Of a stretch of 31,909 nucleotides of DNA, positions 2,904-24,900 are shown piece after piece. Under the pieces are notes generated by a model, which was not told the origin of the DNA, searched no databases, and was given only the letters and a program-made list of their open reading frames with translations. The DNA is taken from positions 1 to 31,909 of IMG/VR virus record IMGVR_UViG_3300009537_000097. One strand, given 5' to 3'. The stretch's first letter is position 1, and the number at the start of each line of letters is the position of its first letter. Source of the stretch: a virus. The position numbers were made by a program, and so were the translations under genes.

Positions 2904-3515
2904 ATGAAACGTTTGAAATTATTTCTGCCGCTGATTGCGGCGATGTTGTTTGTATCCATCTCGCACGCCGACCAATCCGACCGGCAAAAAGACAAATCAA
3001 AACTCGCGGTTTACAGCCAGAGTTTCGCGTCAACGGTAGTCCCAAGCACCAGCGTTGTATTGATCGACCTGAGCGATACCACGAACTTCCCGCACAAAGA
3101 AACAGATCGACTTTACATCCATAGCATTTGTGTGGATATTGACAAGGTGGCCGCGACCACCACCACAGTGAAAGTAGGAGTCGTAAACTACATCGACGCC
3201 AGCTCCAGCACCGTAACCTGGTTCAAGATCGTTGGGCAGGACCTGAATGTATCAAATACGAACCCGAAGCCCTGCACCGAGTACCTCGCTCCGCTCGACA
3301 TGCGAATCACCGCCGGGGCATCGATAACCGAAGGGGCCGTTGATAACGCAAAATCCAACCAGACCACAAACTCCACCACGTTCAAGACCGACGTTCGCCT
3401 TCCGTCAACCAACGGAAACATTTATCCCGGATTGGGAGATATTGTCGCCACGATCACCAAAGGCGGCGCCGCGGTGAATTACACATTCGAGATTGTTTAC
3501 AGCTCAAGCCGATAA
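2904..3515 (+). CDS. exported protein of unknown function, with signal peptide
   Basis: A 203-residue protein with a textbook Sec signal peptide: basic MKRLK, a hydrophobic core LFLPLIAAMLFV and a cleavage site SHA/DQ near residue 22. The mature part is Thr/Ser/Val-rich with many predicted beta strands and one Cys pair (the SICVD and KPCTEY segments), which could form a disulfide in the periplasm. I do not recognise a family. The gene follows the co-chaperonin by 12 bases with GGAG at about 2893-2896, so it is in the late operon. It could be a minor virion or decoration protein of the kind seen at 16489, or a periplasmic effector. The signal peptide is clear; the role is unknown. Confidence 0.75.
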   Translation: MKRLKLFLPLIAAMLFVSISHADQSDRQKDKSKLAVYSQSFASTVVPSTSVVLIDLSDTTNFPHKETDRLYIHSICVDIDKVAATTTTVKVGVVNYIDASSSTVTWFKIVGQDLNVSNTNPKPCTEYLAPLDMRITAGASITEGAVDNAKSNQTTNSTTFKTDVRLPSTNGNIYPGLGDIVATITKGGAAVNYTFEIVYSSSR

Positions 3516-5296: not shown

Positions 5297-5541
5297 TGTC
5301 AGCCGGCCAGTACATTGATATTTTTGACACATACTTCGGTACTAAGCCGACTGTTTTGAGAGTTGATTACGCGTCCGATACCATATGGTACGAAGGCAAG
5401 GCCGAGTCCGGCGCGGCCACTAGCGCTGCCCGCTGGATCATACGCAGATCGACATTAGACAGCCAGGGTCGGATCGTATTGCGCGAATGGGCGCCGTTTA
5501 ACTCCGTTTGGTCAGACCGTGCCAGCTTGACGTACCAATGA
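5296..5541 (+). CDS. small conserved phage protein before the tail fibre
   Basis: An 81-residue protein whose ATG overlaps the DUF1353 stop (TAATG). The segments IWYEGKAESGAATSAARWIIRR and FNSVWSDRASLTYQ recur in short proteins found next to tail-fibre and structural genes of many phages. A compact beta fold is likely; it may be a virion or fibre accessory component. Its stop overlaps the fibre start (ATGA at 5538-5541), so the two are translationally coupled. Confidence 0.7.
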   Translation: MSAGQYIDIFDTYFGTKPTVLRVDYASDTIWYEGKAESGAATSAARWIIRRSTLDSQGRIVLREWAPFNSVWSDRASLTYQ

Positions 5542-8192
5542 AACGCGCAATCCTGATTGTTACCCTGTTCCTCTCCGGCCCGCTGCTAGCCGAGCAGATC
5601 AAACCCATGTACAACCCGGCGACTGGTAAGATCGACCTGATCACCGCTCTTTCGACTACCAGTATCGCCGCGGGTACAGGTATAGCTGTGACGACCACGA
5701 CTTCCGGCGTAACGATTACCGCCACTGGTGGCGGCGGCGCGTCTTCATTGGAGGTTTTTTCAACCTTTGACGGTACCAGATCGAGCCCAACAGCTTCCAT
5801 ATCCATAGGTGACGCATTGAAATTGAGTGTTACTGGTTCAACGGCTGTCGTGACCGTAGATTTCTCCTCCGTCCCGTCACGTTCTGATGTTATTCTCAAT
5901 CAGAATACCCTCCAATCCGGCTCCACGTTCTATGTGTCAAGTGGAACGGTAAATGGGACGCTTATAGTAAACGAGTCTACGGAAAATAAATTCCTCAGAA
6001 TGTACGGCGACACACCAGGCACCGGGCCGAAAAATGTTGTTATTCATGCAAAAACAAAAGAAGGTTTCGGCGTTGGCGGACAGCTTTTTATCGTTGCTTC
6101 CAGCCAGAGCGTTATCGGTGCTACTGGCGTAGCAAAGCAAACGTCCATAAGCCTGTACCCTCCAATCTCAAGCCCCGGCGGTGGGGCCATAATGATGAAT
6201 ATGGACGGTATCACGGCATTGTACATGGAAGCGAATTACACGGAAATGGATGCCGATCTCAGGGTAAACAGGGGGATCGAGGCGACCTACGGTATAAAAA
6301 CGGCGACGGCAACATTAACATCTTTAACTTCAAAAGGTTGTCTTGGAACTAACAGCAGCGGCGATGTTATTGAGGGTAATTGCATATCGGAGGTGACGCC
6401 TGGCTCAACCAATTATATCCAAGTAAGAAACACCCTCCAATCCGGTTCAACGTTCTATGTGTCAAGTGGTACGGTGACGAATCTGAACGTGGCGAATAAA
6501 TTTGTGGTAGGAAATGGGCTTTTGGATTACGTGAGCCCGCATTTATTCTTTAGTTCTCCCTTGGATTATTATGCGCTTAGGGCTGGATACGGTGAGATTT
6601 CAATCCCATCCAACGGCGGGGCATTGGACGTGTCGGCAGAAGGGTACGGAAGCGTATTTTCAGTGATTAATAACAGTGGAGTTGTAGATTTACAAGTCAC
6701 CAATACACTTGATGTTTTGGGGGATGTTATTTCTACTGCGGGTGTAAGCGGCGACACTGTTACCGGAAATACAGTCACGGCTTCCACCGATCTTGTTCTT
6801 GCAAGTCTTTTATCAAAAGATTGTCTCGGAACGGACGGTTCCGGAAATGTTATTGAAGGAACTTGCACAGGAGGCGGCGCATCCTCCCTCGAAGTATTCA
6901 GCCCCACCGCTCAGTCATCGCCAACGACTTCTATTTCGATTGCGGCCCCGTTGAAAATGACCGTTTCCGGTTCAACGGCCATTGTTACGGTGGACGTTTC
7001 CAGCGTAACCCTTCAAGGGAATAACCTCTCGGAAACCTACCTCACGAATTCCAGCGCCACGGCGACGTATTTCAATAAGCTGGCTCCCTACATTTCATCG
7101 GCCAACGTAAACGCCTCGCTCACCGTTACTGCCAACGGAACGGCCGGAGCCACGCCGACCTTTAGCGCCAACCCGTCCTCTGTAACGCTTTACGGAGCCA
7201 GTATTCCAGCCTCAGCGATTGCCGCGGGGAGCCTCGGATCATCCGTTCTTGCCTCATCCTTCCCCGTTACCGGAGTGACGGCAGGAAGCTACACCAACAC
7301 AAACATGACCGTGGACGCGCAAGGACGGGTCACAGCGGCGTCCAATGGGACAGTTGGATCATCGGTAAACGGAAGGCTGAGTTTGACATCCGGCGTTGCC
7401 ATTACTACATCTAATGTTACAAGCGCAGGCACATTGTATTTTACGCCTTACAACGGAAATAAAATATCGCTTTATGAGAGTTCAAATTGGGTTCTGTATT
7501 CTTTTTCACAGCTCTCATTGTCGCTGACATTAACTTCAGGAAAAAATTATGACGTTTTCGTTTACAATAACAGCGGTACGTTAACGCTTGAACTTTCCGC
7601 CGCATGGACAACAGACACGGAGCGCGCGGATGCTGTTATCTTGCAAGATGGTGTTTATGTTAAATCATCGAATACAACGAGAAGATTGGTAGGAACGATA
7701 CGGGCCTCAGGAACGAATGTAACCGAAGACAGCACATCGCGCCGTTTTGTGTGGAATCTATATAATAGGGTAGAAAGAATAATGCGAGCCTTGGAAACAA
7801 CGGACAGTTGGACGTATACAACCGCAACATTTAGGGAAGCCAATGGTGGGTCAACGCCGGGAGTGTCAAGATTTGACTATGTTGTTGGCTTTTCTGAGGA
7901 CTATTTGGATGTTCAAGTTTATGTTCCGGTTATAACTAATGCTGCGATAATATCGACCATTGCTGGTATAGGGATAGACAGTTCTTCTGTTAATTCAGCG
8001 AATTTATTTTATGGATTTACTCATTCAGATACGTTTGGATCGGCGCAGGCATTTTTCAAGGGACATCCAGGTATTGGGTACCACAGCATCAGATGGCTGG
8101 AATTTTCTACCGCCTCCGGGACCACAACATGGTATGGCGATAATGTCGGATTGGCTGTTGGAACCGGTATGCACGGGACGATCAAAGGGTGA
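5538..8192 (+). CDS. long tail fibre/spike protein with Sec signal peptide
   Basis: An 884-residue repetitive fibre. ATG at 5538 overlaps the previous stop and opens with basic MKR, a hydrophobic core AILIVTLFL and the site LLA/EQ near residue 18; the phage-fibre opening MYNPATGKIDLI follows at once. The body is Ser/Thr/Gly/Val-rich with duplicated modules: ASSLEVFS at about 68 and 448, NTLQSGSTFYVSSGTV twice, and a CLGT-x-SG-x-VIEG-x-C unit twice (two Cys each). Near residue 590 the common fibre motif NMTVDAQGRVTAASNG appears. The C-terminal third is non-repetitive and AT-richer, as expected for a receptor-binding tip. It would form the trimeric fibre that contacts the host. The signal peptide is unusual, since fibres are normally made and assembled in the cytoplasm. 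Confidence 0.85.
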   Translation: MKRAILIVTLFLSGPLLAEQIKPMYNPATGKIDLITALSTTSIAAGTGIAVTTTTSGVTITATGGGGASSLEVFSTFDGTRSSPTASISIGDALKLSVTGSTAVVTVDFSSVPSRSDVILNQNTLQSGSTFYVSSGTVNGTLIVNESTENKFLRMYGDTPGTGPKNVVIHAKTKEGFGVGGQLFIVASSQSVIGATGVAKQTSISLYPPISSPGGGAIMMNMDGITALYMEANYTEMDADLRVNRGIEATYGIKTATATLTSLTSKGCLGTNSSGDVIEGNCISEVTPGSTNYIQVRNTLQSGSTFYVSSGTVTNLNVANKFVVGNGLLDYVSPHLFFSSPLDYYALRAGYGEISIPSNGGALDVSAEGYGSVFSVINNSGVVDLQVTNTLDVLGDVISTAGVSGDTVTGNTVTASTDLVLASLLSKDCLGTDGSGNVIEGTCTGGGASSLEVFSPTAQSSPTTSISIAAPLKMTVSGSTAIVTVDVSSVTLQGNNLSETYLTNSSATATYFNKLAPYISSANVNASLTVTANGTAGATPTFSANPSSVTLYGASIPASAIAAGSLGSSVLASSFPVTGVTAGSYTNTNMTVDAQGRVTAASNGTVGSSVNGRLSLTSGVAITTSNVTSAGTLYFTPYNGNKISLYESSNWVLYSFSQLSLSLTLTSGKNYDVFVYNNSGTLTLELSAAWTTDTERADAVILQDGVYVKSSNTTRRLVGTIRASGTNVTEDSTSRRFVWNLYNRVERIMRALETTDSWTYTTATFREANGGSTPGVSRFDYVVGFSEDYLDVQVYVPVITNAAIISTIAGIGIDSSSVNSANLFYGFTHSDTFGSAQAFFKGHPGIGYHSIRWLEFSTASGTTTWYGDNVGLAVGTGMHGTIKG
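5907..6469 (+). repeat. direct DNA repeat within the tail-fibre gene (two copies)
   Basis: A near-identical segment of about 38 bases, beginning accctccaatccgg and ending tatgtgtcaagtgg, occurs at 5907-5944 and again at 6432-6469, differing at two positions. It encodes NTLQSGSTFYVSSG. It marks an internal module duplication and could recombine to change fibre length. Confidence 0.85.
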
Positions 8193-9807: not shown

Positions 9808-10137
9808 ATGGAAATGGCGAATAGTGAACCAATGAAATATGTTCCTACGTCTGTTGTCCGGATAACGAAGTCGCAGGCAGCGGAACTTTCTATCGGAGAG
9901 AAGGTGTCGTTACAATTATCCGGTGAGATCCAGGCGTTAAGAAAATCAGATGACTATTACGAGGCTGAGATTAAGGGCGCCAGCGTGAACGGGATTGAAA
10001 TAAACAAAGCTGATCGAGCGATGAACGAAATGACCGGGACAGACAAGGCCATTAAGTCCGCCGCTGATAAGATCGTCAAGGCTATCGCAAAAACGCCGGC
10101 AGACCATTCTCTTGATAGGATAAATTATGGAAAATGA
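9808..10137 (+). CDS. small conserved protein upstream of the portal gene
   Basis: A 109-residue protein with GGAGG seven bases before the ATG. The first half is a small beta domain (VVRITKSQAAELSIGEKVSLQLSGEI, then DDYYEAEIKGASVNG); the second half is a charged helix (DKAIKSAADKIVKAIAK). No signal peptide. It precedes and overlaps the portal gene by 11 bases, so a head-assembly or portal-associated role is plausible, but no family function is known to me. Confidence 0.65.
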   Translation: MEMANSEPMKYVPTSVVRITKSQAAELSIGEKVSLQLSGEIQALRKSDDYYEAEIKGASVNGIEINKADRAMNEMTGTDKAIKSAADKIVKAIAKTPADHSLDRINYGK

Positions 10138-12223
10138 AATTACAGGCATCGGCGAACCGACCGTATCAACGATCCCGCGTACGCTTGAGGATTCCTATCT
10201 TAAGCGGATGGGAAAACTTATCGAACTTTCAGAAGCAGAGGAGAGAAATCTGAAGGCATGGCTTAAGAAGCAGTTAAACGATTGGGAATCGGATACCTCC
10301 GATCTTCATAAGATACTTGAAGAAGATAACGATTTGGTTGAAGGTTACGTTGATGAACCTTCCGGGATATATGAAGGGTGGGGATCAAACGTGCATGTGG
10401 ATGTCACGGGAATTTACATGGAGGTCTACCAGTCCATTGAAAAAAGGTCAATTTTGGGAGCCGACCAGATTTGGTATGCGGTGCCGGACCCGGAGGCTGA
10501 AGACGCTTTTGAAATAGTGGCCGACATAGACGAAATGCTTAATTACAAGGCACGCAACGAATGGAATATATCTCAAGCCATTCCGATGGCGATATGGGCC
10601 AAGAACCGGGATGGATTATGCGCGGTGCAGGTAACATGGGAGGAAAACTATAAAAAGTCTAACGATGTTATTTTAATTACAAGCGAAGATGAATTTATCG
10701 AACGGTTCCCCGCTCCTGAAAGCGCTGGCGTTGACGAAAACCAATGGAAAGAACTGCGCACCTATGTCGCTCAAAACGCCACCGAAGAAACGCCCGTCGA
10801 GATCCCCATTACGTTTAACAAGCTGGTCTATCATGGCAACAAGGCGCACGTTGTTGAATACGCGGATTTCGTTGTCTTGCCGGCTACCGCACCGAACATA
10901 TATGAAGATTGCTGCCGCGGATACGGTAAGCGGTTCCAGGAGTCAAAAGATGAGATCCGGCCAAAGATTAAAGATGAGATTTATTACAAGCAGTCAGCCG
11001 ACAGCCTTTTATCCAAAAAGCCAAAAGAGGTTAATAGTTACGTTCAGTCCAAGGATTATGTCGAAGGATTGAAGCGCAGCCGGGCCAATGGTTACGTTAA
11101 TTTTGAACTGGTGGTTAAGGGCCGCTTGAAAGGCGAAGATGATGAAGAAGGCAAGTATCTCGTTGTCTATAATCTTGAAAACGATATCCTTCTTCGGTGC
11201 GTTGAGTATTTTTACCGTATTGATTTTTACGCTGTTTTTGTCTTAAACAAGCGCCCAAACAGGCTGGGCGGCGTAAGTATTCCACGCAAGACGCGTGAAA
11301 CAAATGAGGAAGTGGACGTTCAGCATAATCAAAGAATTAACTCCCATGCGATCTCTGGCGTTCCTACTTTTATCACCAGCACAGACACGGATTGGGACCC
11401 GCAGGCACCCGAGAACCGGTGGCGACCAGGGCTCAGGATAAAGACCGACAAGCCGTTCCAGCAGTTTATCGTTCAGCCAACCGACCAGGGGAATTCCATG
11501 CAAGAGGAGGCGAATTCGTTCCGTATATTGGACCTTTCCCTTGGCTCTCCCGCCTCGCTATTTAGCGGTCAATCTGACGTAGGCGATCCTAATGCGCCAG
11601 GGAATAAGACCGCCATGCTGATTAACCAAGGGAATATGCGCATGGAGGACGTTTTGGATGAGGACCGGGACGGCGTTTCAATGATCGGCCAGATATGCCT
11701 TTCTCATATGTATCAATTTGGGCAGAATATCATTAAGTGGACATCCTCCAATATCGGTGCAAATGGGCAGACGCTAAGAGAAGTAAGGACCATCCATCGT
11801 AAGTTTCTTGCAAACGATATTAAGATGCACATGAAGGGCATTAACGTCATTAAAAATCCTGAATCGGAAATGGCTAAGGCTGCGGCCAGGCATCAGCTCC
11901 TAATGGCCGAGCCGCTGTTCGCCAATGACGCCGACCTGAGAATAAAATCCCTGCGTGAGGTTTTGAAAGCCGGGCGCGACCCCGTTGCTGACAATCTTCT
12001 TCCACCGGCAGAAGTCGTCCAGCAGAAACAAATCGAACTTCAAAAACAGGCCATTCTTCAGTTGCAGGCAGAAAAGATAATGCAGGAAAAACAAGCGCAG
12101 GAACAGGCGCTTAAAGAGCGAATCGGAAAAGCGCAACAGGATCTTCAGATACGAAGGCTGGCTGAACGATCCGCCGAAGCCAATCTAAGCAACAATACGC
12201 CCGACGAGGTGGCAAATGGATAA
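10127..12223 (+). CDS. portal protein
   Basis: A 698-residue portal of the size used by short-tailed phages. Twelve copies would form the ring at one capsid vertex through which DNA enters and leaves. Supporting segments are DEPSGIYEGWGSNVHVDVTGIYMEVYQSIEKRS (wing entry), the long alpha/beta middle, VSIPRKTRETNEEVDVQHNQRINSHAISGVPTF (stem/clip region) and SPASLFSGQSDVGDPNAPGNKTA, followed by an Arg/Lys-rich helical region. The C-terminal 80 residues are a Gln/Glu/Lys coiled coil (QKQIELQKQAILQLQAEKIMQ), like the barrel helices of P22-type portals. It has no signal peptide. The start ATG lies in the end of the preceding gene; the end overlaps the next gene by eight bases. Confidence 0.85.
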   Translation: MENEITGIGEPTVSTIPRTLEDSYLKRMGKLIELSEAEERNLKAWLKKQLNDWESDTSDLHKILEEDNDLVEGYVDEPSGIYEGWGSNVHVDVTGIYMEVYQSIEKRSILGADQIWYAVPDPEAEDAFEIVADIDEMLNYKARNEWNISQAIPMAIWAKNRDGLCAVQVTWEENYKKSNDVILITSEDEFIERFPAPESAGVDENQWKELRTYVAQNATEETPVEIPITFNKLVYHGNKAHVVEYADFVVLPATAPNIYEDCCRGYGKRFQESKDEIRPKIKDEIYYKQSADSLLSKKPKEVNSYVQSKDYVEGLKRSRANGYVNFELVVKGRLKGEDDEEGKYLVVYNLENDILLRCVEYFYRIDFYAVFVLNKRPNRLGGVSIPRKTRETNEEVDVQHNQRINSHAISGVPTFITSTDTDWDPQAPENRWRPGLRIKTDKPFQQFIVQPTDQGNSMQEEANSFRILDLSLGSPASLFSGQSDVGDPNAPGNKTAMLINQGNMRMEDVLDEDRDGVSMIGQICLSHMYQFGQNIIKWTSSNIGANGQTLREVRTIHRKFLANDIKMHMKGINVIKNPESEMAKAAARHQLLMAEPLFANDADLRIKSLREVLKAGRDPVADNLLPPAEVVQQKQIELQKQAILQLQAEKIMQEKQAQEQALKERIGKAQQDLQIRRLAERSAEANLSNNTPDEVANG

Positions 12224-12581
12224 TAGAATGAGAAAGCCGGTTGAGGAAAACCTGGAAGCGGATGAGTCGTTTTTAATTAAAAAGAGCATTGAATTATCCG
12301 AGCTTCGCCAGCTTCAAGGGATGAAAGAAACCAATGGATGGATGATCCGGACCGGCCGGATACGCAAGCGATTAGAAAGCGTAGAGAAGCAATTAATGGA
12401 ATTTGACAAGATGACGGATCGTCTTATTCTTTTAAATCTTGCCGAGTGGAAAATGCTTCGGCATGAGCTCTCCCTACCCAATGACATTGATGCCGATATT
12501 GAAGTTTTGGAATCACAGATCGCAATGACGCAGAAAAGGATAAATGAGAGAAAATCAAGACTCCGAGTCCCGTCAGCATAG
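12216..12581 (+). CDS. coiled-coil protein after the portal
   Basis: A 121-residue, almost entirely helical, charged protein. Heptad patterns are clear in RIRKRLESVEKQLMEFDKMTDRL and in DIEVLESQIAMTQKRINERK. It overlaps the portal end by eight bases and the next gene by 38, so it is made with the portal. A minor head, connector or scaffold-accessory role is plausible; no family is recognised. Confidence 0.65.
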   Translation: MDNRMRKPVEENLEADESFLIKKSIELSELRQLQGMKETNGWMIRTGRIRKRLESVEKQLMEFDKMTDRLILLNLAEWKMLRHELSLPNDIDADIEVLESQIAMTQKRINERKSRLRVPSA

Positions 12582-12756: not shown

Positions 12757-12769
12757 ATAAAAAAAGTTG

Positions 12770-12925: not shown

Positions 12926-13753
12926 ATGATTATCGACAATGACGGAATGCCGAACGAAAATAAACCGGAAGCCCAGCCTGGGGAGGATACCGATGCCCCT
13001 AAAGATGATATCAATCCGAAAGATACCAACCTTGAGTCTCAGCCGTCCGATGACAAAAATCCTGACGATGGAGGAGAAGATCAAGAAGCTGGAGCAGGCG
13101 GCACAGAAAATGAAGTTCCGGCTCCAGAAGCAGAATCGGCGCCTGAAATAGAGTCGCTTCGCAATCAGATTTCAGAGCTATCCACCAAACTTGAATCCGC
13201 TTTAAGCGCCAAACCGCAGGCGCCCGCTTCCGCTGCACCTCAAGTTGCCGAACTCAGCGACGAACAGTGGCGTGCACATGAGGAAAAACTTGGCGTAGGT
13301 CGGGAAACCATCAAGTATTTCACCAATCAGGCTGTTAAGGTTTACCAGACCTTGCTTGAAAAGATGGATGAGAAGATGGCGCGATACGAGAAAGCGGACG
13401 CGCTCCGCAGCATTTCACGGGACCCAAAATTTTCGGACGCCACCAAGTACCAAAAGGACGTGGACGAGTATCTTGGTCAATTTCATGTTTCTCAGCATGG
13501 CAATCCAGACTTGCTGAAAAATGCCATTTATTACGCCCGTGGCAAGAATATGGGCAAAACTATTAGCAAGGTTCAGTCGCAGGTCGCTCGCAACCCGAAG
13601 ATCGTAGGCGCTGGCCGCCCTTCAGCCCCGGCCCCGACTGCGTCCAAGCCAAAGATCGCAATGACCGCCGGCCAGAAGCATGCCGCGTCCATGTTTGGCG
13701 AGAAGGAATATAACGAGGGCCTGGCCCTGCGAGGCAAGGCGTTCGATGCTTAA
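12926..13753 (+). CDS. scaffold-like protein (probable capsid scaffold)
   Basis: A 275-residue acidic protein placed between portal and capsid genes, the usual scaffold position. The first 70 residues are disordered and rich in Asp, Glu, Pro and Gly; a coiled coil follows (IESLRNQISELSTKLESAL), then a helical core (QWRAHEEKLGVGRETIKYFTNQAVKVYQTLLEKMDEKM) and a basic, Ala/Pro-rich C-terminus, as scaffolds use to contact the shell. AAAGGAG at 12911-12917 lies eight bases before the ATG. It would guide capsid assembly and leave before or during packaging. The call rests on composition and position, not on a named family. Confidence 0.65.
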   Translation: MIIDNDGMPNENKPEAQPGEDTDAPKDDINPKDTNLESQPSDDKNPDDGGEDQEAGAGGTENEVPAPEAESAPEIESLRNQISELSTKLESALSAKPQAPASAAPQVAELSDEQWRAHEEKLGVGRETIKYFTNQAVKVYQTLLEKMDEKMARYEKADALRSISRDPKFSDATKYQKDVDEYLGQFHVSQHGNPDLLKNAIYYARGKNMGKTISKVQSQVARNPKIVGAGRPSAPAPTASKPKIAMTAGQKHAASMFGEKEYNEGLALRGKAFDA

Positions 13754-14276: not shown

Positions 14277-15020
14277 ATGTCACTTAATTTGAAGCAGCTT
14301 TTCACTCATAACGAAATTGTCAAATTGCCTATTTGGGGCAACGCAGCCGACGTTCCGCAGGGCGCGATTCTGCGCAAGGGCACGACGCCCGCAACACAAA
14401 ACGGTGCGTTGATCCAAATGACAGGCGATGCCGGCGTTGACTATGTTGGCCGATTGGCCCAAATGCTTGATTATTCTGCCGATGGCGAAACGCTTGTCAA
14501 TGGAACTTCGTTTGTATTGAAGCCGGTGCAGCTTTTGGCTCCGACTAAAATCCACATGATGGAATATGACCTAACCTCGGTTATTGATGCGACCCAGGCT
14601 GTTAGCACGACCACCATAACCCTCACCTCGCTTGAGGATGACATCGACGCTGCCTTCTTATACGTTGCCGCTGGATTGGGCGCGGGCCAGATGAACTATC
14701 TGACCGCTTCCGCAGCTGGTTCGGCTACGTTGAAAGCGGCTTTTGGCACCAGCTTGGACACCACCTCGGATATCGTCAAGGTGTTGCCGCGGTTCCATCA
14801 GTTAATCGAACTTAATTCCGATGGGACTAAACTTGGAAGCGGTGCAAATGCGCCCACCGGTACAGGGTTCGTCTGGGATACGTTCATTGAGCGCAACGGG
14901 AAGATTGACCGGCTTAGCCCGGTTTCTCACGCTGCCCTGACGGGTCTTTCCAGTCTTCGCAGCTTCAAAATATGGGCGGCGATTTCATTCAGAAATACGC
15001 AGCCGTATACAATCGACTAA
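14277..15020 (+). CDS. head protein upstream of the capsid gene (decoration-like)
   Basis: A 247-residue protein just before the major capsid gene, with GGAGGAGG at 14262-14269. The N-terminal ADVPQGAILRKGTTPATQNGALIQM reads like the entry of beta-barrel head decoration proteins, and the middle is Thr/Ala/Ser-rich (STTTITLTSLEDDIDAAFLYVAAGLG). It has no signal peptide, unlike the decoration-like protein at 16489. It is probably a capsid-stabilising or vertex protein. The position is strong evidence for a virion role; the exact family is not identified. Confidence 0.65.
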   Translation: MSLNLKQLFTHNEIVKLPIWGNAADVPQGAILRKGTTPATQNGALIQMTGDAGVDYVGRLAQMLDYSADGETLVNGTSFVLKPVQLLAPTKIHMMEYDLTSVIDATQAVSTTTITLTSLEDDIDAAFLYVAAGLGAGQMNYLTASAAGSATLKAAFGTSLDTTSDIVKVLPRFHQLIELNSDGTKLGSGANAPTGTGFVWDTFIERNGKIDRLSPVSHAALTGLSSLRSFKIWAAISFRNTQPYTID

Positions 15021-15044: not shown

Positions 15045-15932
15045 ATGATAGCAGGAACAAATTACCAGGACGCTCTTGAGCCGATAGCGATCAAGAACTT
15101 CCAAGTTGGATACAAAGAGAAGCCGATGGAACGTGACATGATTTACACGGTGAAATCGTCTTCAAAGCTAACTGAGACTTACCTCGAGCTGGGCGATATC
15201 GGCGCGATGGGCGAGTTTTCGGGAGACTTGGAATATGAAGACACGAACCAAGGGTACAAGATGACCATTTCGGTCACTGAACTTGCGAAAGGAATTGAGA
15301 TCCGCAAGCTATTTGTACTCACCGACCAGCTGGATGTGGTGGAAGGACTGCCTAAGCTTCTTGGCCTGGCCGCCCGCCGGCGTCAACGCCGCGACGTGTT
15401 CCAAATCTTCAACGATGCGTTCAACACGTCTCTCTTGACCATTGACGGATTGCAGCTTTGTTCGGCGGCTCATACATCGAACAACGGCGGATCGTCTCAG
15501 GCCAACCGCGTGACCACCGCTTTCTCTGCGGCGAATGTGGAAACCATGCGTCAGAACATGAAAGCGAACATGACAAACACCGACCAGCTGTTCGATTCAA
15601 ACCCGAACATGCTCATTGTGCCCCGCCAGCTGGAAGAAGCGGCTTATGAGCTGATTTCTAGCTCCGGTAAAGTGGACACCGCCAACAACAACGCGAACTT
15701 CCATAAGGGTAAGTACAAGCTGCTGGTATCCGATGAACTAGACGACGTTAATAACTTCTTCGTCGTCGACTCGGAGCTGATGAAAATGATGAACCGCTGG
15801 AACACCGTTGCCAACCTGGAATTCAAACAGGCCGAGAACTTCAACGGTATTTCCGCTCGCTACCTGGCCTATATGGTCTACGGTCGCGGAAGCACGGACT
15901 GGCGCTGGGTTGAAGGGGCGGAAGTTTCTTAA
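15045..15932 (+). CDS. major capsid protein (HK97 fold, Mu gpT-like)
   Basis: A 295-residue protein of the Mu gpT-like major head group. Signature regions are the E-loop/N-arm part (GEFSGDLEYEDTNQGYKMTISVTELAKGIEI), the spine helix (GLPKLLGLAARRRQRRDVFQIFNDAFN), TIDGLQLCSAAHT, the P-domain strand SNPNMLIVPRQLEEAAYELI and the A-domain YKLLVSDELDD...NFFVVDSELMKM, ending in RYLAYMVYGRGSTDWRWVEG. It would form the icosahedral shell with scaffold and portal, probably with folding help from the GroES-like protein. GGGAGGG lies before the ATG. No signal peptide. Confidence 0.9.
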   Translation: MIAGTNYQDALEPIAIKNFQVGYKEKPMERDMIYTVKSSSKLTETYLELGDIGAMGEFSGDLEYEDTNQGYKMTISVTELAKGIEIRKLFVLTDQLDVVEGLPKLLGLAARRRQRRDVFQIFNDAFNTSLLTIDGLQLCSAAHTSNNGGSSQANRVTTAFSAANVETMRQNMKANMTNTDQLFDSNPNMLIVPRQLEEAAYELISSSGKVDTANNNANFHKGKYKLLVSDELDDVNNFFVVDSELMKMMNRWNTVANLEFKQAENFNGISARYLAYMVYGRGSTDWRWVEGAEVS

Positions 15933-15957: not shown

Positions 15958-16476
15958 ATGAGCGCCATGATTATTAGACGTATTCTTTCGATCAAAGATC
16001 GGGAGCGATTAAAAAGGGAAATATCAGACAGGCGCCGGACATTAAACGGTGAGATTGTCATCCCGCAGCATCCGAACGGGAAGGAGGAAGGACTCTCCGC
16101 CCGGAGGATGGGCCGGTACTCGCAGTTCATGGATCGGTCTGTTCGAGAGGACCCGGCACTTTTGAACTCGCAGATCAGGAAGCTCTCGCGGATACTTGAG
16201 AATGGAAGTCCGGCTGATCTGAGCAAGGGCGAACGCTACCGGATTGAGAGAAAGGCGAACGCGGCCAGGGAGTGGCTTAAAAGGAACATGACGCAGAAAA
16301 AGTTTTACTTTGCCAAATCCGGCACCCAGGAAATGGCGACAGGGATGGAATCGATTAAGAAGCATGAGCAATCGCCTGAGTTTAGGAAGATGGCAGACCA
16401 GTACAAAAATTGCATGAGACAGATCGACCCGGACAACGCGGCGGCCCATAACATCGAGGCGCTGCGGCCCGAATAG
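15958..16476 (+). CDS. basic helical protein after the capsid gene
   Basis: A 172-residue protein rich in Arg, Lys and Glu, mostly helical, with a strong ribosome site (AAGGAGGAG at 15945-15953). Segments such as LSARRMGRYSQFMDRSVREDPALLNSQIRKLSRIL and KGERYRIERKANAAREWLKRNM recall small head-associated or DNA-contacting proteins, but I do not recognise the family. A second ATG at 15967 could serve as start. Its position among head genes suggests an internal or connector role. Confidence 0.65.
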   Translation: MSAMIIRRILSIKDRERLKREISDRRRTLNGEIVIPQHPNGKEEGLSARRMGRYSQFMDRSVREDPALLNSQIRKLSRILENGSPADLSKGERYRIERKANAAREWLKRNMTQKKFYFAKSGTQEMATGMESIKKHEQSPEFRKMADQYKNCMRQIDPDNAAAHNIEALRPE

Positions 16477-16488: not shown

Positions 16489-17073
16489 ATGAAATTTAAG
16501 AAAGCAGGATTGTTTGTTCTAGGAATCGTAGCTGTTGGCGTATCGTTGCTTTATGCGGCTAATTACGTTCAGCGGTTCACCGTGGCTGGAAGCCAGGTGT
16601 GGCTGATTGATAACGACGGCTCGACCATGCAGTCCGGTCCCCACAAATTCGGCAATAACGCGACCGCAACAAGCGTTACGGTCCCAACGGTAACTACAGG
16701 TTCTAATTTTTCTACTTATGTCCCCGTTTATAACGTCGGCGCCGCGGCAACTCAGGGCGATGTCCTGATCGCGTCCAATACGGGCACGGGGTACGTTGCC
16801 GTGGCTCCTGCGACCACCGATCTGACCAGCATTGTCGGCGTTTCAGCCGGTTCGATTGCATCCGGCGCTATTGGCTGGATGATCCCGCGCGGCGGCGGTT
16901 TTGCCGTTGTTAAAACAACCGGGACAGTTTCCATTGGCGATACCTTGGTTTCAACGTCCAGCGCTGCGGGATACCTCACGGGAGACGCCACGCCAACCAC
17001 CGGCGCTGACGTTGCGACCGCTATGTCGGCAGGCACCGCAGCCGGCGGAACCGTACTAGCGATTCTTCACTAA
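16489..17073 (+). CDS. decoration-like protein (DUF2190-type) with signal peptide
   Basis: A 194-residue protein with GGAGGAGG before its ATG and a clear signal peptide: MKFKK, a hydrophobic core containing GLFVLGIVAVGVSLL and the site LYA/AN near residue 23. The mature protein is Thr/Ser/Val/Gly-rich. Its C-terminal 100 residues (GDVLIASNTGTGYVAVAP, GVSAGSIASGAIGWMIPRGG, GDTLVSTSSAAGYLTG, GGTVLAILH) follow the small beta-barrel of DUF2190-type capsid decoration proteins, which bind the outer capsid face. A decoration protein with a Sec signal is not expected if capsids mature only in the cytoplasm. It is the first of three consecutive head-tail genes with signal peptides. Confidence 0.75.
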   Translation: MKFKKAGLFVLGIVAVGVSLLYAANYVQRFTVAGSQVWLIDNDGSTMQSGPHKFGNNATATSVTVPTVTTGSNFSTYVPVYNVGAAATQGDVLIASNTGTGYVAVAPATTDLTSIVGVSAGSIASGAIGWMIPRGGGFAVVKTTGTVSIGDTLVSTSSAAGYLTGDATPTTGADVATAMSAGTAAGGTVLAILH

Positions 17074-17095: not shown

Positions 17096-17839
17096 ATGAA
17101 GCGGATATTCAAACCGCTCATCACGGTCATCCTTTTATTCTCAGCACAGTTTGCATGGTCGCTGACATTATCCGAGATCCGGACCGAAATAAGACGCAAC
17201 GTTCGTGATACCGCGACCGTCGCAACGCTCCGGACATATTCAGATACCACTTTAAATACGCTCATTAACCAGGCTCAAGACGAAATCGTTAACCAGACCT
17301 GGTGCGTAACGACCTCAACGTCTTACGCGCTGTTGGCCTCCACGAGCTACTACAACCTCCCAACAGACTTCATCGCGCCTGAAGTCGTTACCTTCGCTGG
17401 GTCCACGGGCGTTTCCTACGAGTTAAAAGAGGCCGCCAGACGCAGTTTCATCCAGCAGAACCCGGACTGGCTCAGGCAAAGAGGCCCCCCGGCCCAATAC
17501 ATCATTCAGCAGTCCCTATCCGGCGGCAACCCACTGCTCATCTCCTACTATCCCATCCCATCATCCACTCAGATTGGAACAGTCACCATTACCTACTATA
17601 AACAGGTCGATGACCTATCCTCTGATTCCGACGTTCCCTTTGACGGACTCAATCACCTTTACCCTTTTCACCGGACCATCGTCTACGAGGTGACAGCAAA
17701 ACTGAAATTTATTGAAGGGCTGAGCGCTGAAGGATCGACTTATATCCAGCTCTACCAGTCCGACCTTGCCATCATGGCCAAAAGGCTTTCGACGAGTCCG
17801 AATTATAGTCCTGGCATCGTAGCCGGCCCGGCCAGATGA
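17096..17839 (+). CDS. head-tail adaptor protein with signal peptide
   Basis: A 247-residue adaptor of the type that forms a ring under the portal of short-tailed phages. Evidence is the opening TLSEIRTEIRRNVRD, then YSDTTLNTLINQAQDEIV, the strand SYYNLPTDFIAPEVVTF and a late helical region (FHRTIVYEVTAKLKFIEG). Ahead of this lies a Sec signal peptide of about 22 residues (MKR, a core containing LITVILLF, site AWS/LT). The family's usual start (a TLSEIR-like segment) comes immediately after the predicted cleavage, so the signal is an addition to an otherwise ordinary adaptor. AAAGGAGG lies before the ATG; the end overlaps the next gene (ATGA). Confidence 0.8.
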   Translation: MKRIFKPLITVILLFSAQFAWSLTLSEIRTEIRRNVRDTATVATLRTYSDTTLNTLINQAQDEIVNQTWCVTTSTSYALLASTSYYNLPTDFIAPEVVTFAGSTGVSYELKEAARRSFIQQNPDWLRQRGPPAQYIIQQSLSGGNPLLISYYPIPSSTQIGTVTITYYKQVDDLSSDSDVPFDGLNHLYPFHRTIVYEVTAKLKFIEGLSAEGSTYIQLYQSDLAIMAKRLSTSPNYSPGIVAGPAR

Positions 17840-20322
17840 AGAAGCTGCTCCTCGCCTTCTTCCTGGCCTCCGCGCCCCTGGCCGGCCCGGCCGGGGCGGA
17901 AGTTATTAACATCGCCAAATTCGGAGGTATAAATACCGACGAATCCCCTTTGGCCCTGCAAAACGGTCAATCCCCCGACTCTGAGAACGTCCTTACGGAC
18001 AATGGAGTAGGACTTCAGCCGAGAGAAGGGTTTGTTCAATTTTCAACGGAACCTTCACGCGGATTGTGGTCGTTTGGAAAGACGGACGGAACCCGGTATC
18101 TGATTGCGGTTTCCAGCGGGCACTTGAAAGCAACAACTGGAAGCAACTTCACGATTCAGATTGCGACTGTATCCACAACGGTGGCCACCCGCGGCGTCAC
18201 ATTGGGGAACACGTTTTATTTCATGAATACCGTCGATGGTCTAAAGGCATGGGACGGAACAGCCACGACTACGGTTGATCCGACAAAAAAGGGGATCGCG
18301 ATAGCCGCCTATAAAGGGCGTTTGGTTATCGGCGGAGTAACGGGAAGCGAGCGCACGATTTATCTGTCCCGGTATCTAAACGGTCAGGATTTTACCCTTC
18401 CTTCAACGGAAGACGATACGGCCCCCGCCCAAATCGTTGCTGCAGGGGCACTGGATGAGGGGATATCGGGTTTTTATGGGACTTTTTTGGACCGCTTAAT
18501 GATCTTCAAGCCCAATTCCACGCAGAGCCTTTCAGGAAGCCGAAGAAGCAATTTCAGCTTGCGCACGATCTCGGATTCCGTCGGTCTGACGGATGGAGAA
18601 AGCGTTCGTGATTGCGACGGGAAATTGAGATGGCTTTCAAGAGGCAGAAAGATCTACGAATTCGACGGAGCGTCGTTCTATAAGATCTCCGAGGACGTTG
18701 ACGAGATGTTCGCCGACATTGAACAGGGTGATTCCGCCAGCCGAGAAAATACGCAGACAACTCAATCTGATTTTTCCTCTGGGTCCATAAATTTCCCGAA
18801 TAGCTTGTCGGTAAGTTATTTGCCGGGAAGCGTTCTCATGCCTTTCCCGGATAATTTTTCAACATATAGAAAGGTCGGAGGTACCGATCCGCAGATATGG
18901 GCGGAATTTTTGAGTGCAAATTCAACAGCCTACCTTTCTTCTGGCGGGCTAAGATTGCAAGCGACTAATTTTTCTACAGCAACTATTCAAACAAATGAAA
19001 TTGCAATTAGCACAACTGCCATCGCATCCGGAGTCACTGTTCAATTTTTATTGAGAGATATTGGCACATCCGTCTTTTTTGAACGTCAACTTTTACATTT
19101 TGTAATTTCTACTATGACCGTTTCAGAAATAAAAAGTAAATGCTACGGAACGCCAACGAGCTGCGCCACAGATGATTCTGTATGGTTTTATCGTTGGACA
19201 TCCACCTCATCATTGACAGCAAAATTAAATCTTGGGCGAAATTTTAAGGTCGGAGATGAACCTGTGTATACGGCTGCAACGACGGTTTTGCCAGCTACCT
19301 ATACATTTGTTTTAAATGCGACGAATTATATTTTTAAAATAAACAATTCAGTAAACAAGTCCGGGGCTCATTCATTTTCAAATGTCAGTCCGTTTTATCT
19401 GTCTTTCTGGTTAAAAGACAATGATTCAACAGACCCATCAACAGAATATGCCGTTATTGATAATGTTCGCATAGACGCATCGACATCTGTTTTTACGTCT
19501 AATGTGATTGATGCTGGGGATGCCATTTCATCTTGGGGACCGACTGTTATCTCTGAGACAAATCAAGAAGGTGTTATTTCCTATCAAATTAATTCGTCAT
19601 CTCAATCAGTCTTATCCCTATTTAATCCTTCAAGCTGGACAAGCCTAACGAATGGCGTCGCCCCGTCAATCGGAGTTAATAGGTATCTTGCCTATCGAGC
19701 TATTTTTTACTCAACAAATGCAACAACTTCCGCAAGCCTTGATTCATTATCTGTTAATTGGAATGAGGGGTCTGTTTTAAAAACCGTTTCCGCTTACTCC
19801 AATCAGAGGTATTGGTTGGGCGTTTCCGTTTCCTCGACGGTCAACAACAAGGTCTTCGTCTACGACAAGAAAAATCAATGGCAGAGATTTTCAGGAATTA
19901 ACGCCGATGCCATGACGATCTATAACTCAAACCTTTATTTCGGCAATCCCTACGGTATATTTCAGGCGGAAATCGGCACAACGGACAACGGCTCCGCCAT
20001 CTCCGCTTATTACAAGACCAAGCCTTTGGCAGGCACCAGCTTGGATTTGGGAAACACCTATTCAAAACTGAGGATGACCACGGAAAGAAGCGATGATACC
20101 TTGGGTACGAGTTTCCGCATCGACGGCGACGACACCGATTACAGTCTGGGAAGTTATCAGATGAACCAGAACCCCGGCATCCAAAACTTTAAACTCCCGT
20201 TCTCGTCGGGCGAAGTCCAATCCGGCAGGTACATCGATTTCAAATGGAGTGTTTCGGGTACGACGTTTTGGAGAATCCTAAACGGGAATTTGTACTTCGA
20301 TCCCGATGTCGTGGTAGAATAA
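17836..20322 (+). CDS. tail nozzle/stopper-type protein with signal peptide
   Basis: An 828-residue protein coupled to the adaptor by an ATGA overlap, the same order as the two tubular tail genes of T7-like phages. After a signal peptide (MKK, core LLLAFFLASAPL, site AGA/EV near 21) it begins IAKFGGINTDESPLALQNGQSPDSENVLTD and LQPREGF, typical of the beta-propeller nozzle group. Propeller-like repeats follow (NTFYFMNTVDGLKAWDGT, KGRLVIGGV, YGTFLDRLMIFK, KLRWLSRGRKIYEFDG). Residues about 310-650 are an AT-richer, Ser/Thr-rich insertion resembling a lectin-type beta sandwich (AVIDNVRIDAS). The propeller resumes at YSNQRYWLGVSV and VFVYDKKNQWQRFSG. It would form the lower tail and seal the DNA exit. 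Confidence 0.75.
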   Translation: MKKLLLAFFLASAPLAGPAGAEVINIAKFGGINTDESPLALQNGQSPDSENVLTDNGVGLQPREGFVQFSTEPSRGLWSFGKTDGTRYLIAVSSGHLKATTGSNFTIQIATVSTTVATRGVTLGNTFYFMNTVDGLKAWDGTATTTVDPTKKGIAIAAYKGRLVIGGVTGSERTIYLSRYLNGQDFTLPSTEDDTAPAQIVAAGALDEGISGFYGTFLDRLMIFKPNSTQSLSGSRRSNFSLRTISDSVGLTDGESVRDCDGKLRWLSRGRKIYEFDGASFYKISEDVDEMFADIEQGDSASRENTQTTQSDFSSGSINFPNSLSVSYLPGSVLMPFPDNFSTYRKVGGTDPQIWAEFLSANSTAYLSSGGLRLQATNFSTATIQTNEIAISTTAIASGVTVQFLLRDIGTSVFFERQLLHFVISTMTVSEIKSKCYGTPTSCATDDSVWFYRWTSTSSLTAKLNLGRNFKVGDEPVYTAATTVLPATYTFVLNATNYIFKINNSVNKSGAHSFSNVSPFYLSFWLKDNDSTDPSTEYAVIDNVRIDASTSVFTSNVIDAGDAISSWGPTVISETNQEGVISYQINSSSQSVLSLFNPSSWTSLTNGVAPSIGVNRYLAYRAIFYSTNATTSASLDSLSVNWNEGSVLKTVSAYSNQRYWLGVSVSSTVNNKVFVYDKKNQWQRFSGINADAMTIYNSNLYFGNPYGIFQAEIGTTDNGSAISAYYKTKPLAGTSLDLGNTYSKLRMTTERSDDTLGTSFRIDGDDTDYSLGSYQMNQNPGIQNFKLPFSSGEVQSGRYIDFKWSVSGTTFWRILNGNLYFDPDVVVE

Positions 20323-20337: not shown

Positions 20338-21255
20338 ATGGCTGGAACAGTAAATAGGGTATTCGCTGGTTATGACAGCAAAGGCAACATGGTTTTTAAA
20401 TTCGTCAACGGGCTTACGGGAGAGGCCCTGCCCGACAGGGGACTGGAGGTCCAGGAGCCAAATGGGAGAAGGTCGGATTACAGCGGCGCTATTTACGACG
20501 GAAACGGAAACGCCGTCGCCGACCCTGGGCAGGTTCCGAGCGATCCCGTTGCAAAAAAACCGACAACGCCGCCGCTTAAAACTCATCCCGATTTGACAGG
20601 ACCAGGAAGCACCGACCCCAACGCTGTTACTCGTCCAGATCTCCTCGATCCCATCGCCAAGCCCATCGCGGGAAGGGATACCTATAACTTCCAGCCATTC
20701 CTCGACGAACAAGACAAGTATTTCAACGACCTTCTGGCTAACTTAAAACAACCGTCCTCCGTTGACGAGGCGTTGAAACTCACGGAAACCGACTTTATGA
20801 ACCAGCTTCTACAGGGGATCGACGAGGACACAACCGCTTCCGTTGGAAGCGCGAAACTTGACTTTCTGGAAAGAGGACTCGGCGGGCCGGGCCAAATATC
20901 GGACATTGAAACTTCCGCTCTGAATCAGGCCCGCACACTTGGAGACAAGACCAAGGCATCGACAAGGACGCAATTTGCCCTGTCTGAATTGGGCCGTCAA
21001 AAGGAAAAGGAGTCGGCGTTGACCGATGTTTATAAGACCCGATACGGAACGACCGCTGACTTATACAAGTCCCTCCTTGGTATTCAGGGGACGAAAGACA
21101 CCGCTTTGGCCCAGATTCTGGCGGACATGGAGAAGGAACGGCTGGCGCGGGCGTCGGGGAAGTATGCGCCGTCGAGCGTGGATAGGGGGGGCGGTGGCCC
21201 TTCATTCTCAATAGGGATCCCTACGCCGATTGGTAATATAGGGGTAGGGTTTTAA
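20338..21255 (+). CDS. candidate internal virion protein
   Basis: A 305-residue protein with GAGGAGG before the ATG. It opens with a small beta unit (VFAGYDSKGNMVFKF), followed by a Pro-rich linker and a long helical region (DEALKLTETDFMNQLLQGID, LGDKTKASTRTQFALSELGRQKEKESALTDVYKTRYG), and ends in a Gly-rich hydrophobic tail (SFSIGIPTPIGNIGVGF). It stands between the tail genes and the giant polyvalent protein, where internal or ejected proteins are common. The helical repeats and Gly-rich end resemble ejection proteins, but the match is general. Confidence 0.65.
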   Translation: MAGTVNRVFAGYDSKGNMVFKFVNGLTGEALPDRGLEVQEPNGRRSDYSGAIYDGNGNAVADPGQVPSDPVAKKPTTPPLKTHPDLTGPGSTDPNAVTRPDLLDPIAKPIAGRDTYNFQPFLDEQDKYFNDLLANLKQPSSVDEALKLTETDFMNQLLQGIDEDTTASVGSAKLDFLERGLGGPGQISDIETSALNQARTLGDKTKASTRTQFALSELGRQKEKESALTDVYKTRYGTTADLYKSLLGIQGTKDTALAQILADMEKERLARASGKYAPSSVDRGGGGPSFSIGIPTPIGNIGVGF

Positions 21256-21267
21256 GGGGGCGTTAGT

Positions 21268-21921
21268 ATGCCGAAGCTAAAAAGTTTTTCATTTGACCCA
21301 ATCAATCCGTGGGAACAAAAAAGAAAAAGAGAATCGGAATCATCCGATCTTTACTTAAAGTTATTGGATTACGGTTACGCTCCCGATGAAGCAAGGATCA
21401 TGTCTTTGGGTTACGCCAAAACAGGCCGATTCGAGCCCATCACGACCCGCGAAAAACCACCGGCTACCGGGATCGGCCCGTCCAACCGGGAACCGCTCGA
21501 CCTCCATCAAGAGAAAGCTAATATCAGTCTCAGGAGTAAAGGGTATAGGTTCAATAAAGAAACAGGCAAATTCGATAATGTTCTTCCCGACCAGGATGTT
21601 TTCACCTATGGCCCTGACGGAAAGCCGGTCCGTTCCGGCAGCGTTCCACGCGGATCGAAAGTTTCACCAAGGCCGAAACCGCAGTCGGAGATGCAGAAGG
21701 TTTACACCTACGATGAGGACAACAACCTTATAGAGATTGGCGAGGTACCAAGAGGATCGGCTGTAAAATCTCCTGTTCCAACAGACCCCATCGCAGAACT
21801 ACTCAAGCAACAGGAACTAAAAAAGGTGCGTAAGTTCAAATCAACCGAAGAAGCGGAAAGCGCCGACCTTCCTATCGGTTCTATTGTTGAAGTAAACGGC
21901 AAACGATTCAGGGTTGAGTAA
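21268..21921 (+). CDS. candidate internal virion protein with internal repeat
   Basis: A 217-residue basic protein, largely disordered, ending exactly where the giant gene starts (no spacing). It has a repeated unit: DVFTYGPDGKPVRSGSVPRGSKV, and about 30 residues later KVYTYDEDNNLIEIGEVPRGSAV. A third, looser unit follows (FKSTEEAESADLPIGSIVEVNGKRFRV). The N-terminus has a helical segment (LYLKLLDYGYAPDEARIMSLGYAKTG). AAGGGGG lies before the ATG. It is likely packaged or made with the polyvalent protein; no family is recognised. Confidence 0.65.
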   Translation: MPKLKSFSFDPINPWEQKRKRESESSDLYLKLLDYGYAPDEARIMSLGYAKTGRFEPITTREKPPATGIGPSNREPLDLHQEKANISLRSKGYRFNKETGKFDNVLPDQDVFTYGPDGKPVRSGSVPRGSKVSPRPKPQSEMQKVYTYDEDNNLIEIGEVPRGSAVKSPVPTDPIAELLKQQELKKVRKFKSTEEAESADLPIGSIVEVNGKRFRVE

Positions 21922-24900
21922 ATGGCGCTTGTTCCGCTTGAGGAATCAACGCGCCGCCGAAGGCTGGTCCCGATTGACGAACCCGTCAAACGTAAGCTGG
22001 TCCCGATTGGCGACCGGGAAGCAGGGGTTTTAGACCAACCACCGGGATTCCCGGTAAGAAGCGCTATTCGCACCGCGATCAAAAGCCTGCCTTTCCAGAA
22101 CCTGCCGCCTGAAGTTGAGCGGCTTGGCAGGGCCGAGGCTGCCGGCACGGCCAGGAGCGCGGCTGGTATCCTGCCGTTAATTCAAGGCGGACTTAAGCGA
22201 ACACCATTGGCCCCGCTTGTACCTGAGGGCGATGTATCCGGGCCTTTAATTCGAGCAGCCGAAAGAATCGAGCCGAAAGACCAGGGTTTTATCGAAAAAC
22301 TTCTTTCCGGGCGGATGTCCGATTCGGAACTTTTGGACAGTATTCGCTCCGTGTCGCCTTTAATATCGCAAGCGAGCCCGCTTACAGGTGCCGCCTTATC
22401 TAAAATCCCGACCGAAGAAAGCATCCTGGCTGAATCAGCTTCCAGTGGTCAGGTTCCTTACGGACAAATTTTGACCCGCGCACTGGCTGAAGGGTTTATC
22501 GGTGCTGTCCGGCCTTTGCTTCCAACCAATCCGGTCGAACTGGCCAATCTTGCCGCAGCTCCGCCATCCGTAAAATTTCTTCAAAACGAATTCCCGATTT
22601 TGAGCCGCGATATTGTCGGTATGATCCTTAAAAACAGGGTTAAAGTTCCGGACGAAAAGCTACCGGAAATAATGAAAAATACATTTGAAGTCGGAATGGA
22701 TTCCTACACGAAAGGCGCCTCCGCTCCGCAGGCCAGGAAGGCCATGCTCCAAAACTTTGAGCAGGAAGCCGCGTCCGCTCGCGGTCAAGCAGAGGCTGGT
22801 ATTCGCTCAAGACAAGGAGCGCCGCAGACCGGAACGCTTCCTTCCACCAGAGCGCCCGGCGGAATTCCGGTGACGGAATTGGAGATTCCCGGTAAGGTTC
22901 AGCGTAATGTCGATATTGCCATTGATACCATCAGTAAGGCATTGGGGAAGAAACCGTCTGCCGGGCCTATCGAGGCGCAGGGAACGGTTTTAGGTGAAGA
23001 AGACATATCCGGTATTGCTGGAATTGCAAAGCCGCCGCCTACCCGTCCTATCCAGCAAACACCGTATTCCTCCATTGTCACACCTGAAGGCGCTCAAAAC
23101 ATCGCCTCCAAGTTCCCGGCCATCTCAACCGTATTGGAAGGCCAGAACCTTCCCTTATCACCACAGGATGCCCAAAAAATTATTAAAAAGGCCAATGCCG
23201 TAGGCGAGGAGGCCCTGATCCGTGGTGCAACACCAGGACAGGCCAATGCGGCCGCTGGCGAGGCGTTAAAGGCCACTCTCATGCCCAAGTTGCAGCAGTT
23301 GGCCCAGGCCAAAACACCAAAGCCAAAAACCGTCAAATACGATAAACGGGGTGTCCCGATCCTTAAGCCCGGTTCGGTCGTTTTAACGGTTCAAGACGAA
23401 TCTGGCAAACCAATCAGGATAAAGCACAAGGACGCGCTCGAGTACGCTGAAGGGTTGCATCGGGAAGCTATGGAGAAATGGGAATTTATTAAAAACGATC
23501 CCGTTCGGTCCGCTATCGCCAGAGTTGGGATCGCGCCCGAGCGGCCGGATCAGTTTGGAATTTCCCCTGAGAGCGGTGAGTACGAACGGCTGCCAAAGAA
23601 CGCAAAGAACAAAAACGGAAGGACTGTTACGGAATGGGTCGAGAATCTTAACGAAGGAAAGGCGGAGCAGGATATAGATGCAAGCTATGTCTACGATATT
23701 GCAAAAAATCTTGAGGTCCCGCCCAAGCCAAAAATGGGCGATTCTTACCGGCAGGCGATACATGATCTCGAAGGCGAGCTGTCCGGCCTGTCAACCTACC
23801 AGCCACCGACCGCAGGCGCTTTTGAGGCGCGTGCCGCTTACGCTGAAAGTGCTCAGCCGTTTTACTCCCCGCTGAAACGCGCCATCGAAGCCAAGATGCC
23901 TAACCGGGCGCCGGCGCAGATGGTCAAGAACATCGTAAACAGCCAGGACGTGAAAAAGGAGGAAACCGACTGGATCGAAATCAACGAATGGCTGGACCAG
24001 CAGAAGGGCCCGGTATCAAAAGAGTCTGTCCTTAAATTCATTGATGACAATACCGTTGAGATTGAAGAAGTGGTCAAGGGTGACAAGTCCACGGATTTGA
24101 TCCGAAGGTTCACCCAGCAGATTGAAGAAAAAGGGTACGGGGTTATAAGGCACGACGACGGCGGCTACGAGGTTTACAAGGACGGCCGGTTCCTGCTTGA
24201 CGACGAACTGCCTAAAGACGTTAAGAACCTCTCCGAGCTTTTACAGAAAGCCATAGCGAAAGAAGGGACAAGCAACACGAAATTTGAGAAGTACACGCTT
24301 CCGGGGGGAGAGAACTACAGGGAGGTGTTGCTGACGCTGCCGGAAAAGGTTCCGGATAAATTGCCGGAAGGATTTTATACAAATAAAACTTCGTATGGAT
24401 GGGAGATTGTGAATCGGGAAGGCGGTCGATTCGCGATGCCTACGCAACCGACGGAAACGTTGGCGGTCGAGAAATTTAATCAGGCGCTTAGTGCGGAAGG
24501 CGGTTTTCGTTCTGCTCACTTCCCCGAACCCAACATCCTCGCCCACATCCGGATTGACGACCGCATAGACACTCAGGGCAACAAGGTTCTTTTCATTGAG
24601 GAGATTCAGTCTGATTGGGGGCAAAAATTAAGAGAGAGCGCTGACCTCAGGAAAGTTTCCAAGCCAGAGAGTGTTTCTAAACTTGCGACCGATTTCTTCG
24701 GCAGAGAGATAGCGTCCGGTATTTCTTTCAATCAAATGGATGGTGGCGTGCTGGCTCTTGCTGACAACGATCAGATTAAGCGGGCGATTATCTCGCTTTT
24801 GCCCATTGATATGGTGAATCAACTCGGTGGGAAGGAGGCGGCGACCAAGAAGTTTCTCAGCAATCCGTCGATGATCGGCGCGGACCTCCCCATCGATGCT

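Follow-up and report, generated by a model that had tools for sequence, protein, structure and literature searches.

To our knowledge, every tailed phage studied to date is understood to assemble its heads and tails in the cytoplasm, and we know of none that builds its tail outside it. The virion proteins of filamentous phages (M13/fd) carry Sec/YidC-dependent signals and are assembled at the inner membrane, but those phages have no head, tail or capsid packaging and are extruded rather than produced by head-tail joining. Exported phage lysis proteins (signal endolysins, spanins) also use the host Sec but are not parts of the virion. In T4, prohead initiation (gp20 portal, gp40, YidC) ties virion assembly to the inner membrane; there, however, it is the head side that lies peripherally on the membrane's cytoplasmic face, and none of the tail proteins is exported (PMC9958956). 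Zero to two signals per genome were reported for five rumen phages (PMC5723332). The locus described here shares with the SU10-type phages (SU10, HMO-2011, the CRP phages) the adaptor family (SU10, MaAM05), the adaptor-then-nozzle gene order and the GGxNT/GGLNT motif of the nozzle. It differs from them in that a signal peptide directly precedes the canonical N-terminus of both adaptor and nozzle.

The stretch of DNA analysed (31.9 kb), hereafter the window, is a virus record from IMG/VR and probably represents a genome fragment. Relatives were found by scanning viral contigs with its major capsid protein (MCP) and portal. Shorter or near-identical copies aside, ten related IMG/VR contigs were identified (L002, L003, L004, L005, L006, L009 (with L007/L008), L025, L028, L031 and L032), whose MCP or portal is 27–71% identical (30–71% for the MCP); L031 (portal, 27%) and L032 (MCP, 36%) are distant. 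The HK97-type MCP and large terminase recognised by family search, together with a portal assigned by position and conservation, place the window in the Caudoviricetes, and the clade is one of uncultured short-tailed phages. A tblastn search with the adaptor, the nozzle, the portal and the products of genes 30507 and 31163 found no close relative among cultured phages. Genome contigs scanned for a host with MCP and portal alignments yielded no relative, and no tRNAs were found that could serve as a host clue.

Signal peptides were called with a Sec rule that we wrote ourselves: a basic n-region, an uncharged core of at least 9 residues with high hydropathy, and small residues at −3/−1. In a 30-kb stretch of E. 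coli K-12 used for calibration, all five exported proteins and none of 22 others pass the rule, as do about 1% of shuffled proteins. Seven window genes, named here by their first position, open with a classical Sec/SPase I signal (5538, 30507, 31163, 2904, 16489, 17096 and 17836). Judged by this rule their leaders have the basic n-region, the uncharged hydrophobic core of at least 9 residues and the small −3/−1 residues of Sec/SPase I substrates, and this n-h-c architecture predicts that they work as such signals. On reading, the listed leaders contain no Tat motif (S/T-R-R-x-F-L-K) and no lipobox with Cys at +1 of the cut site.

Gene 17096 (17096..17839, +) encodes the head-tail adaptor, with leader MKRIFKPLITVILLFSAQFAWS and mature sequence LTLSEIRTEIRRNVRD. 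Its product is a full-domain member of SU10_adaptor (PF24175), matched over residues 24–231 and profile positions 2–185 of 194 (E 2.3e-20; 74.3 bits against a curated cut-off of 27). The adaptor domain starts at residue 24, right behind the leader, whereas in the PF24175 members checked (SU10, MaAM05) it lies at the N-terminus with no leader, a trait of those members that stands outside the Pfam definition of the family. The only start is the ATG at 17096, behind a perfect AGGAGG, and no ATG, GTG or TTG occurs before the mature domain. All six adaptors, the window's included, match SU10_adaptor and all six bear a signal; two of them are encoded in tandem in L003 (12161-12865 and 12862-13623), each with its own signal peptide. 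The parts of L028 and L031 that were examined yielded no SU10-type adaptor. The next gene (17836..20322, +) stands immediately behind that of the adaptor, an order shared with other short-tailed phages, and encodes a nozzle/tail-tube-like protein with leader MKKLLLAFFLASAPLAGPAGA and mature sequence EVINIAKFGGINTD, the mature part beginning EVINIAKFGGINTDESPL. It is assigned as the nozzle by this position and by tail-protein matches: members of its family match PHROG minor tail, tail and virion structural proteins (2e-7, 4e-6 and 2e-4, respectively), and it has weak homology to the leaderless nozzle-like protein of MaAM05 (E 5e-6). The nozzle bears a signal in five of five relatives. Solved-structure profile searches found no match to the adaptor and none that was credible to the nozzle, and the AlphaFold2 model of the latter (mean pLDDT 37) is too poor for a structure search. 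Most adaptors and nozzles have no usable internal start, the L002 adaptor having an ATG at its mature start; since the window adaptor and most others lack one, every copy of them would bear the leader. Because they carry leaders, these two proteins, which have to attach to the portal and build the tail channel, are predicted to be exported. Homing-endonuclease-like ORFs lie within the structural module of L002 (6343-6804, −) and L005 (7133-7570), adjoining the nozzle or MCP gene.

Upstream of the adaptor, gene 16489 (16489..17073, +) encodes a tail-side protein with a signal and a beta-rich C-terminal half, behind an AGGAGG ribosome-binding site. Eight of eight proteins at this position bear a signal, although those of L028 and L009 align weakly (15–20%); the AlphaFold2 model of the window protein is of low confidence, too poor for a structure search. 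Gene 2904 (2904..3515, +) has the leader MKRLKLFLPLIAAMLFVSISHA followed by DQSD and no assigned function; the 2904-like proteins of L004, L006, L025 and L032 all carry a signal. Near it, in the window ORF at 3525-4085, a signal-like core (MTVLLLVCVSAKA/AVDF) occurs some 46 residues into the reading frame, which may point to a different start or to a gene fusion. The window also encodes, at 2517-2891, a phage GroES-like co-chaperonin; several relatives have one upstream as well. At the right end, gene 30507 (30507..31166, +) encodes a fibre with a signal; it starts MKRPLMFLAFFTMLTLSHG/AEQPPYDVKDPAVSENFREIY, and its mature N-terminus EQPPYDVKDPAVSENFREIY recurs in its group as EEQPPFEVKDPAATENFRQIY and SEQPPYEVPDPAVSENFREIY. 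Its homologues in G005 and G006 are also signal-bearing, as is its positional counterpart in G002, whose C-terminal C1q domain supports a receptor-binding fibre role for this group. L012 (5938-6924) likewise encodes a fibre that has both a signal and a C1q domain; trimeric heads of this kind are more familiar from animals. The signal-bearing product of gene 31163 (31163..31723, +), which starts MKKLVVFFVTILISTSSWS/DLIVFFDPVTSEV, has no match in family or database searches and its function is unassigned.

Gene 5538 (5538..8192, +) encodes a fibre of 884 amino acids that starts MKRAILIVTLFLSGPLLA/EQIKPMYNPATGKIDL, contains two Cys-pair motifs and resembles, in its C-terminal third, tail spike or fibre-region genes of Pam5 and of Rhizobium phages. 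Homology to the signal-bearing fibres of L028 and L031 was not proved. A second possible start, the ATG of codon 24 at position 5607, lies just before the YNPATGKIDL codons and would drop the signal; its upstream match is slightly better than that of the ATG at 5538. Because the fibre could start leaderless at this internal ATG, its signal is less certain than any other in the set.

A preliminary description of this DNA had listed 5538, 30507 and 31163 as three unlinked adhesin genes with signal peptides. The signals are present, all three products passing the Sec rule, but genes 30507 and 31163 adjoin and overlap, and 31163 is without family support as a fibre. That list lacked 2904, 16489, 17096 and 17836, and of these four the adaptor and the nozzle matter most.

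No signal was found on the proteins of the head. The portal (10127..12223, +) was assigned by position and by conservation in nine relatives, and none of ten portals has a signal. The same holds for the scaffold-like acidic protein (12926..13753, +; assigned by position; 0/9) and for the MCP (15045..15932, +; 0/10), which matches PF10124 Mu-like_gpT (2e-13), PF25209 (4e-13) and the major head protein family phrog_371 (2e-18). The probable head decoration protein (14277..15020, +), assigned by its position before the MCP, has no signal either; one of ten members of its group passes the rule and was judged a false positive. At the head/tail border a conserved cytoplasmic protein (15958..16476, +; 0/10) is, we infer, a candidate head-closure factor. 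Genes 20338 and 21268 (20338..21921, +), assigned by position, encode two probable internal/ejection proteins (0/8). Gene 21922 (21922..30510, +) encodes a leaderless internal virion-type protein of 2862 amino acids, probably ejected; around residues 1400-1510 it contains a RadC-like JAB domain, that is, a DNA-repair-type or isopeptidase fold within a giant protein.

The strict rule is thus passed by 27 of the 31 tail-side genes of the window and its relatives and by one of their 61 head, portal, scaffold and internal genes (Fisher p 6e-18, the homologues counted being non-independent); the four tail-side genes that fail are classical by eye, e.g., MKKLLPFLLLFFAGPVKA. The split follows the virion: leaders are found on everything beyond the portal and on nothing inside the head or among the proteins that make it. 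Wherever a relative's contig spans the region and both genes can be recognised, adaptor and nozzle carry a leader, and the genes downstream of the 15958 homologue in L031 and L032 are likewise signal-bearing. In L009, five signal-bearing genes stand in a row between the 15958 homologue and the adaptor (11405-14519), including collagen-like (Gly-rich) and LamG-like ones. The leaders have drifted in sequence (mean pairwise identity 31%, vs 51% over residues 1–20 of the mature adaptor) but still keep the basic n-region, the hydrophobic core and, close to the cleavage site, small residues. Drift with the design retained fits selection for function rather than for sequence, the usual mark of signal peptides. 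The selection for export that the preliminary description had proposed from its three genes, and had made depend on an enrichment of signal peptides, is therefore supported by these counts and reaches beyond the fibres to the whole tail side across the clade. A feature of the fibres alone is rejected, since adaptor and nozzle have signals too.

The other half of the earlier argument, that Cys pairs able to form disulfides only outside the cytoplasm underlie export, was not sustained. The fibre 5538 has four Cys in all, paired in CLGTNSSGDVIEGNC and CLGTDGSGNVIEGTC, and 30507 contains two. The window fibre contains the motif CLGTxxSGxVIEGxC twice, and none of the relatives' proteins has it. Cys is no more frequent in signal-bearing proteins (63 of 10,578 mature residues) than in others (273 of 35,529), and even Cys numbers are about equally common in both (27/40 and 109/170, respectively). 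Disulfides as a shared reason for export were rejected because the motif is confined to the window fibre and Cys pairs are neither enriched nor conserved with the signals.

The control records (SU10, P22, Alcaligenes QDWS535, Vibrio 1.083, Manatee Spring phages and a Helicobacter prophage) were scored with the same signal caller and contain 0–4 signal-like genes each; none of their inspected adaptor, nozzle and spike genes has a signal. Few signals per genome (0–2 in the rumen phages, 0–4 in these records) are the usual condition in phages. The strongest control is the homologous adaptor-nozzle pair, whose two proteins open at once with their mature domain, without a leader, in seven phage records (HMO-2011, Roseobacter CRP-2, CRP-13 and CRP-603, Rhizobium RHph_N3_19, Manatee ctYwJ313 and MaAM05), most of these adaptors having a stop codon 1–4 codons upstream, and most control adaptors and nozzles show GGLNT, GGxNT or GGxN near their start. 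As the homologous pairs are leaderless elsewhere, the leader was either gained in this clade or lost in the others, the comparison being unrooted. The MaAM05 record (MW495066.1, L022, ‘Microcystis phage MaAM05’) has lepA, proS, ftsH and kimA beside phage genes; the record is possibly mis-assembled or includes bacterial DNA.

The n-h-c architecture of the leaders, their conservation, their restriction to the tail side and the leaderless homologous pairs elsewhere can be read in the sequence itself. From them we conclude that the tail-module proteins are very probably exported from the cytoplasm by the host Sec. An overall arrangement in which a tail module with Sec signals is built outside the cytoplasm and later joined to heads made of leaderless head and internal proteins is, on these sequence features, the reading we favour as probable; assembly of the tails outside the cytoplasm, taken on its own, is somewhat favoured. 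In its full form, in which filled heads form in the cytoplasm, a completely Sec-secreted tail is built in the periplasm and the two join at or after opening of the inner membrane, the proposal hangs in the balance. Host Sec would move the tail proteins across the inner membrane and signal peptidase would remove the leader at the canonical mature N-terminus; neither a signal peptidase nor another phage export factor is found among the 25 Pfam families that recur most often in the relatives' genes. By the positive-inside rule a basic n-region leaves the mature part outside, so this would hold even with the leader uncut. Tail assembly would then take place in the periplasm, or else on the inner membrane's outer face. 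DNA-filled heads from the cytoplasm would encounter the tails at the membrane, or when it is opened by the holin. T4 and P22 heads and tails join spontaneously in vitro, which makes joining at the membrane or at holin opening possible. Against the proposal stands the need of the adaptor to bind a portal that belongs to a cytoplasmic head: with the tail exported, the two would have to come together across a membrane. P22-like heads lacking adaptor proteins lose their DNA, which the P22 adaptor and plug proteins retain. This difficulty leads us to predict a cytoplasmic closure factor: such a factor, perhaps the 15958 group, or a retained terminase would hold the DNA in until joining.

The main rival sees in the leaders a means of membrane targeting, the tail being held at the inner membrane by uncut or late-cut leaders while heads dock from inside. 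The T4 heads that start on an inner-membrane-bound portal with YidC nearby (PMC9958956) are a precedent for membrane-tied assembly, and a few leaders (16489 in L031, 31163) have weak cut sites. Most, however, combine a short length with small residues close to the cut site, as is typical of cleavable signals, and a large nozzle hexamer with its fibres would hardly be released from many uncut membrane helices; we consider this explanation rather unlikely. Exported copies might instead act before or at lysis, as a surface decoy, in superinfection exclusion or in binding to neighbours, with virion copies arising from internal starts or unprocessed precursors. The lectin-like and collagen-like signal-bearing extras (Laminin_G_3 proteins, the Gly-rich repeat in L009:12781) would fit such roles, as would the internal ATGs in the L002 adaptor and the window fibre. 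These two are nevertheless the only places where dual translation from an internal mature start is possible; elsewhere all copies would bear the leader, as argued above for the window adaptor and most others, and an exported adaptor has no obvious surface role, so that this alternative is decidedly improbable. Still less credible is an assembly leader, merely signal-like, that a protease removes in the cytoplasm: the first 20 residues of P22 gp7 are removed by a host protease according to a record note, but the leaders here have no common cut motif and share only the general signal design, on unrelated proteins and on the tail side only. Start miscalls or chance hydrophobic N-termini, which apply to the fibre 5538 alone with its better-matched internal ATG, are a negligible explanation of the whole and are refuted for the adaptor and the signal-bearing set by a chance rate of about 1% against 27/31 observed, by strong ribosome-binding sites before 16489 and 17096 and by the lack of alternative starts in most adaptors and nozzles.

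A search of full-text literature returned no precedent for signals on phage structural or tail proteins (adaptor, nozzle) or for a Sec translocon associated with tails; subscription journals and bioRxiv lie mostly outside this search, so that the result weighs little. What is new is the predicted cellular location, the protein families themselves being already known. For lectin-fold phage proteins, the lack of signals was taken as support for a phage origin (PMC6199706); compared with that reasoning, tail export in this clade would mean that a signal peptide cannot prove a metagenomic gene to be bacterial rather than phage. If tails of this clade are indeed built from exported proteins, the rule of cytoplasmic assembly would be broken, and how a filled head stays closed and how the two halves meet would become questions. 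Export would also allow such phages to evade the sensing of tail proteins in the cytoplasm or to exploit periplasmic folding.
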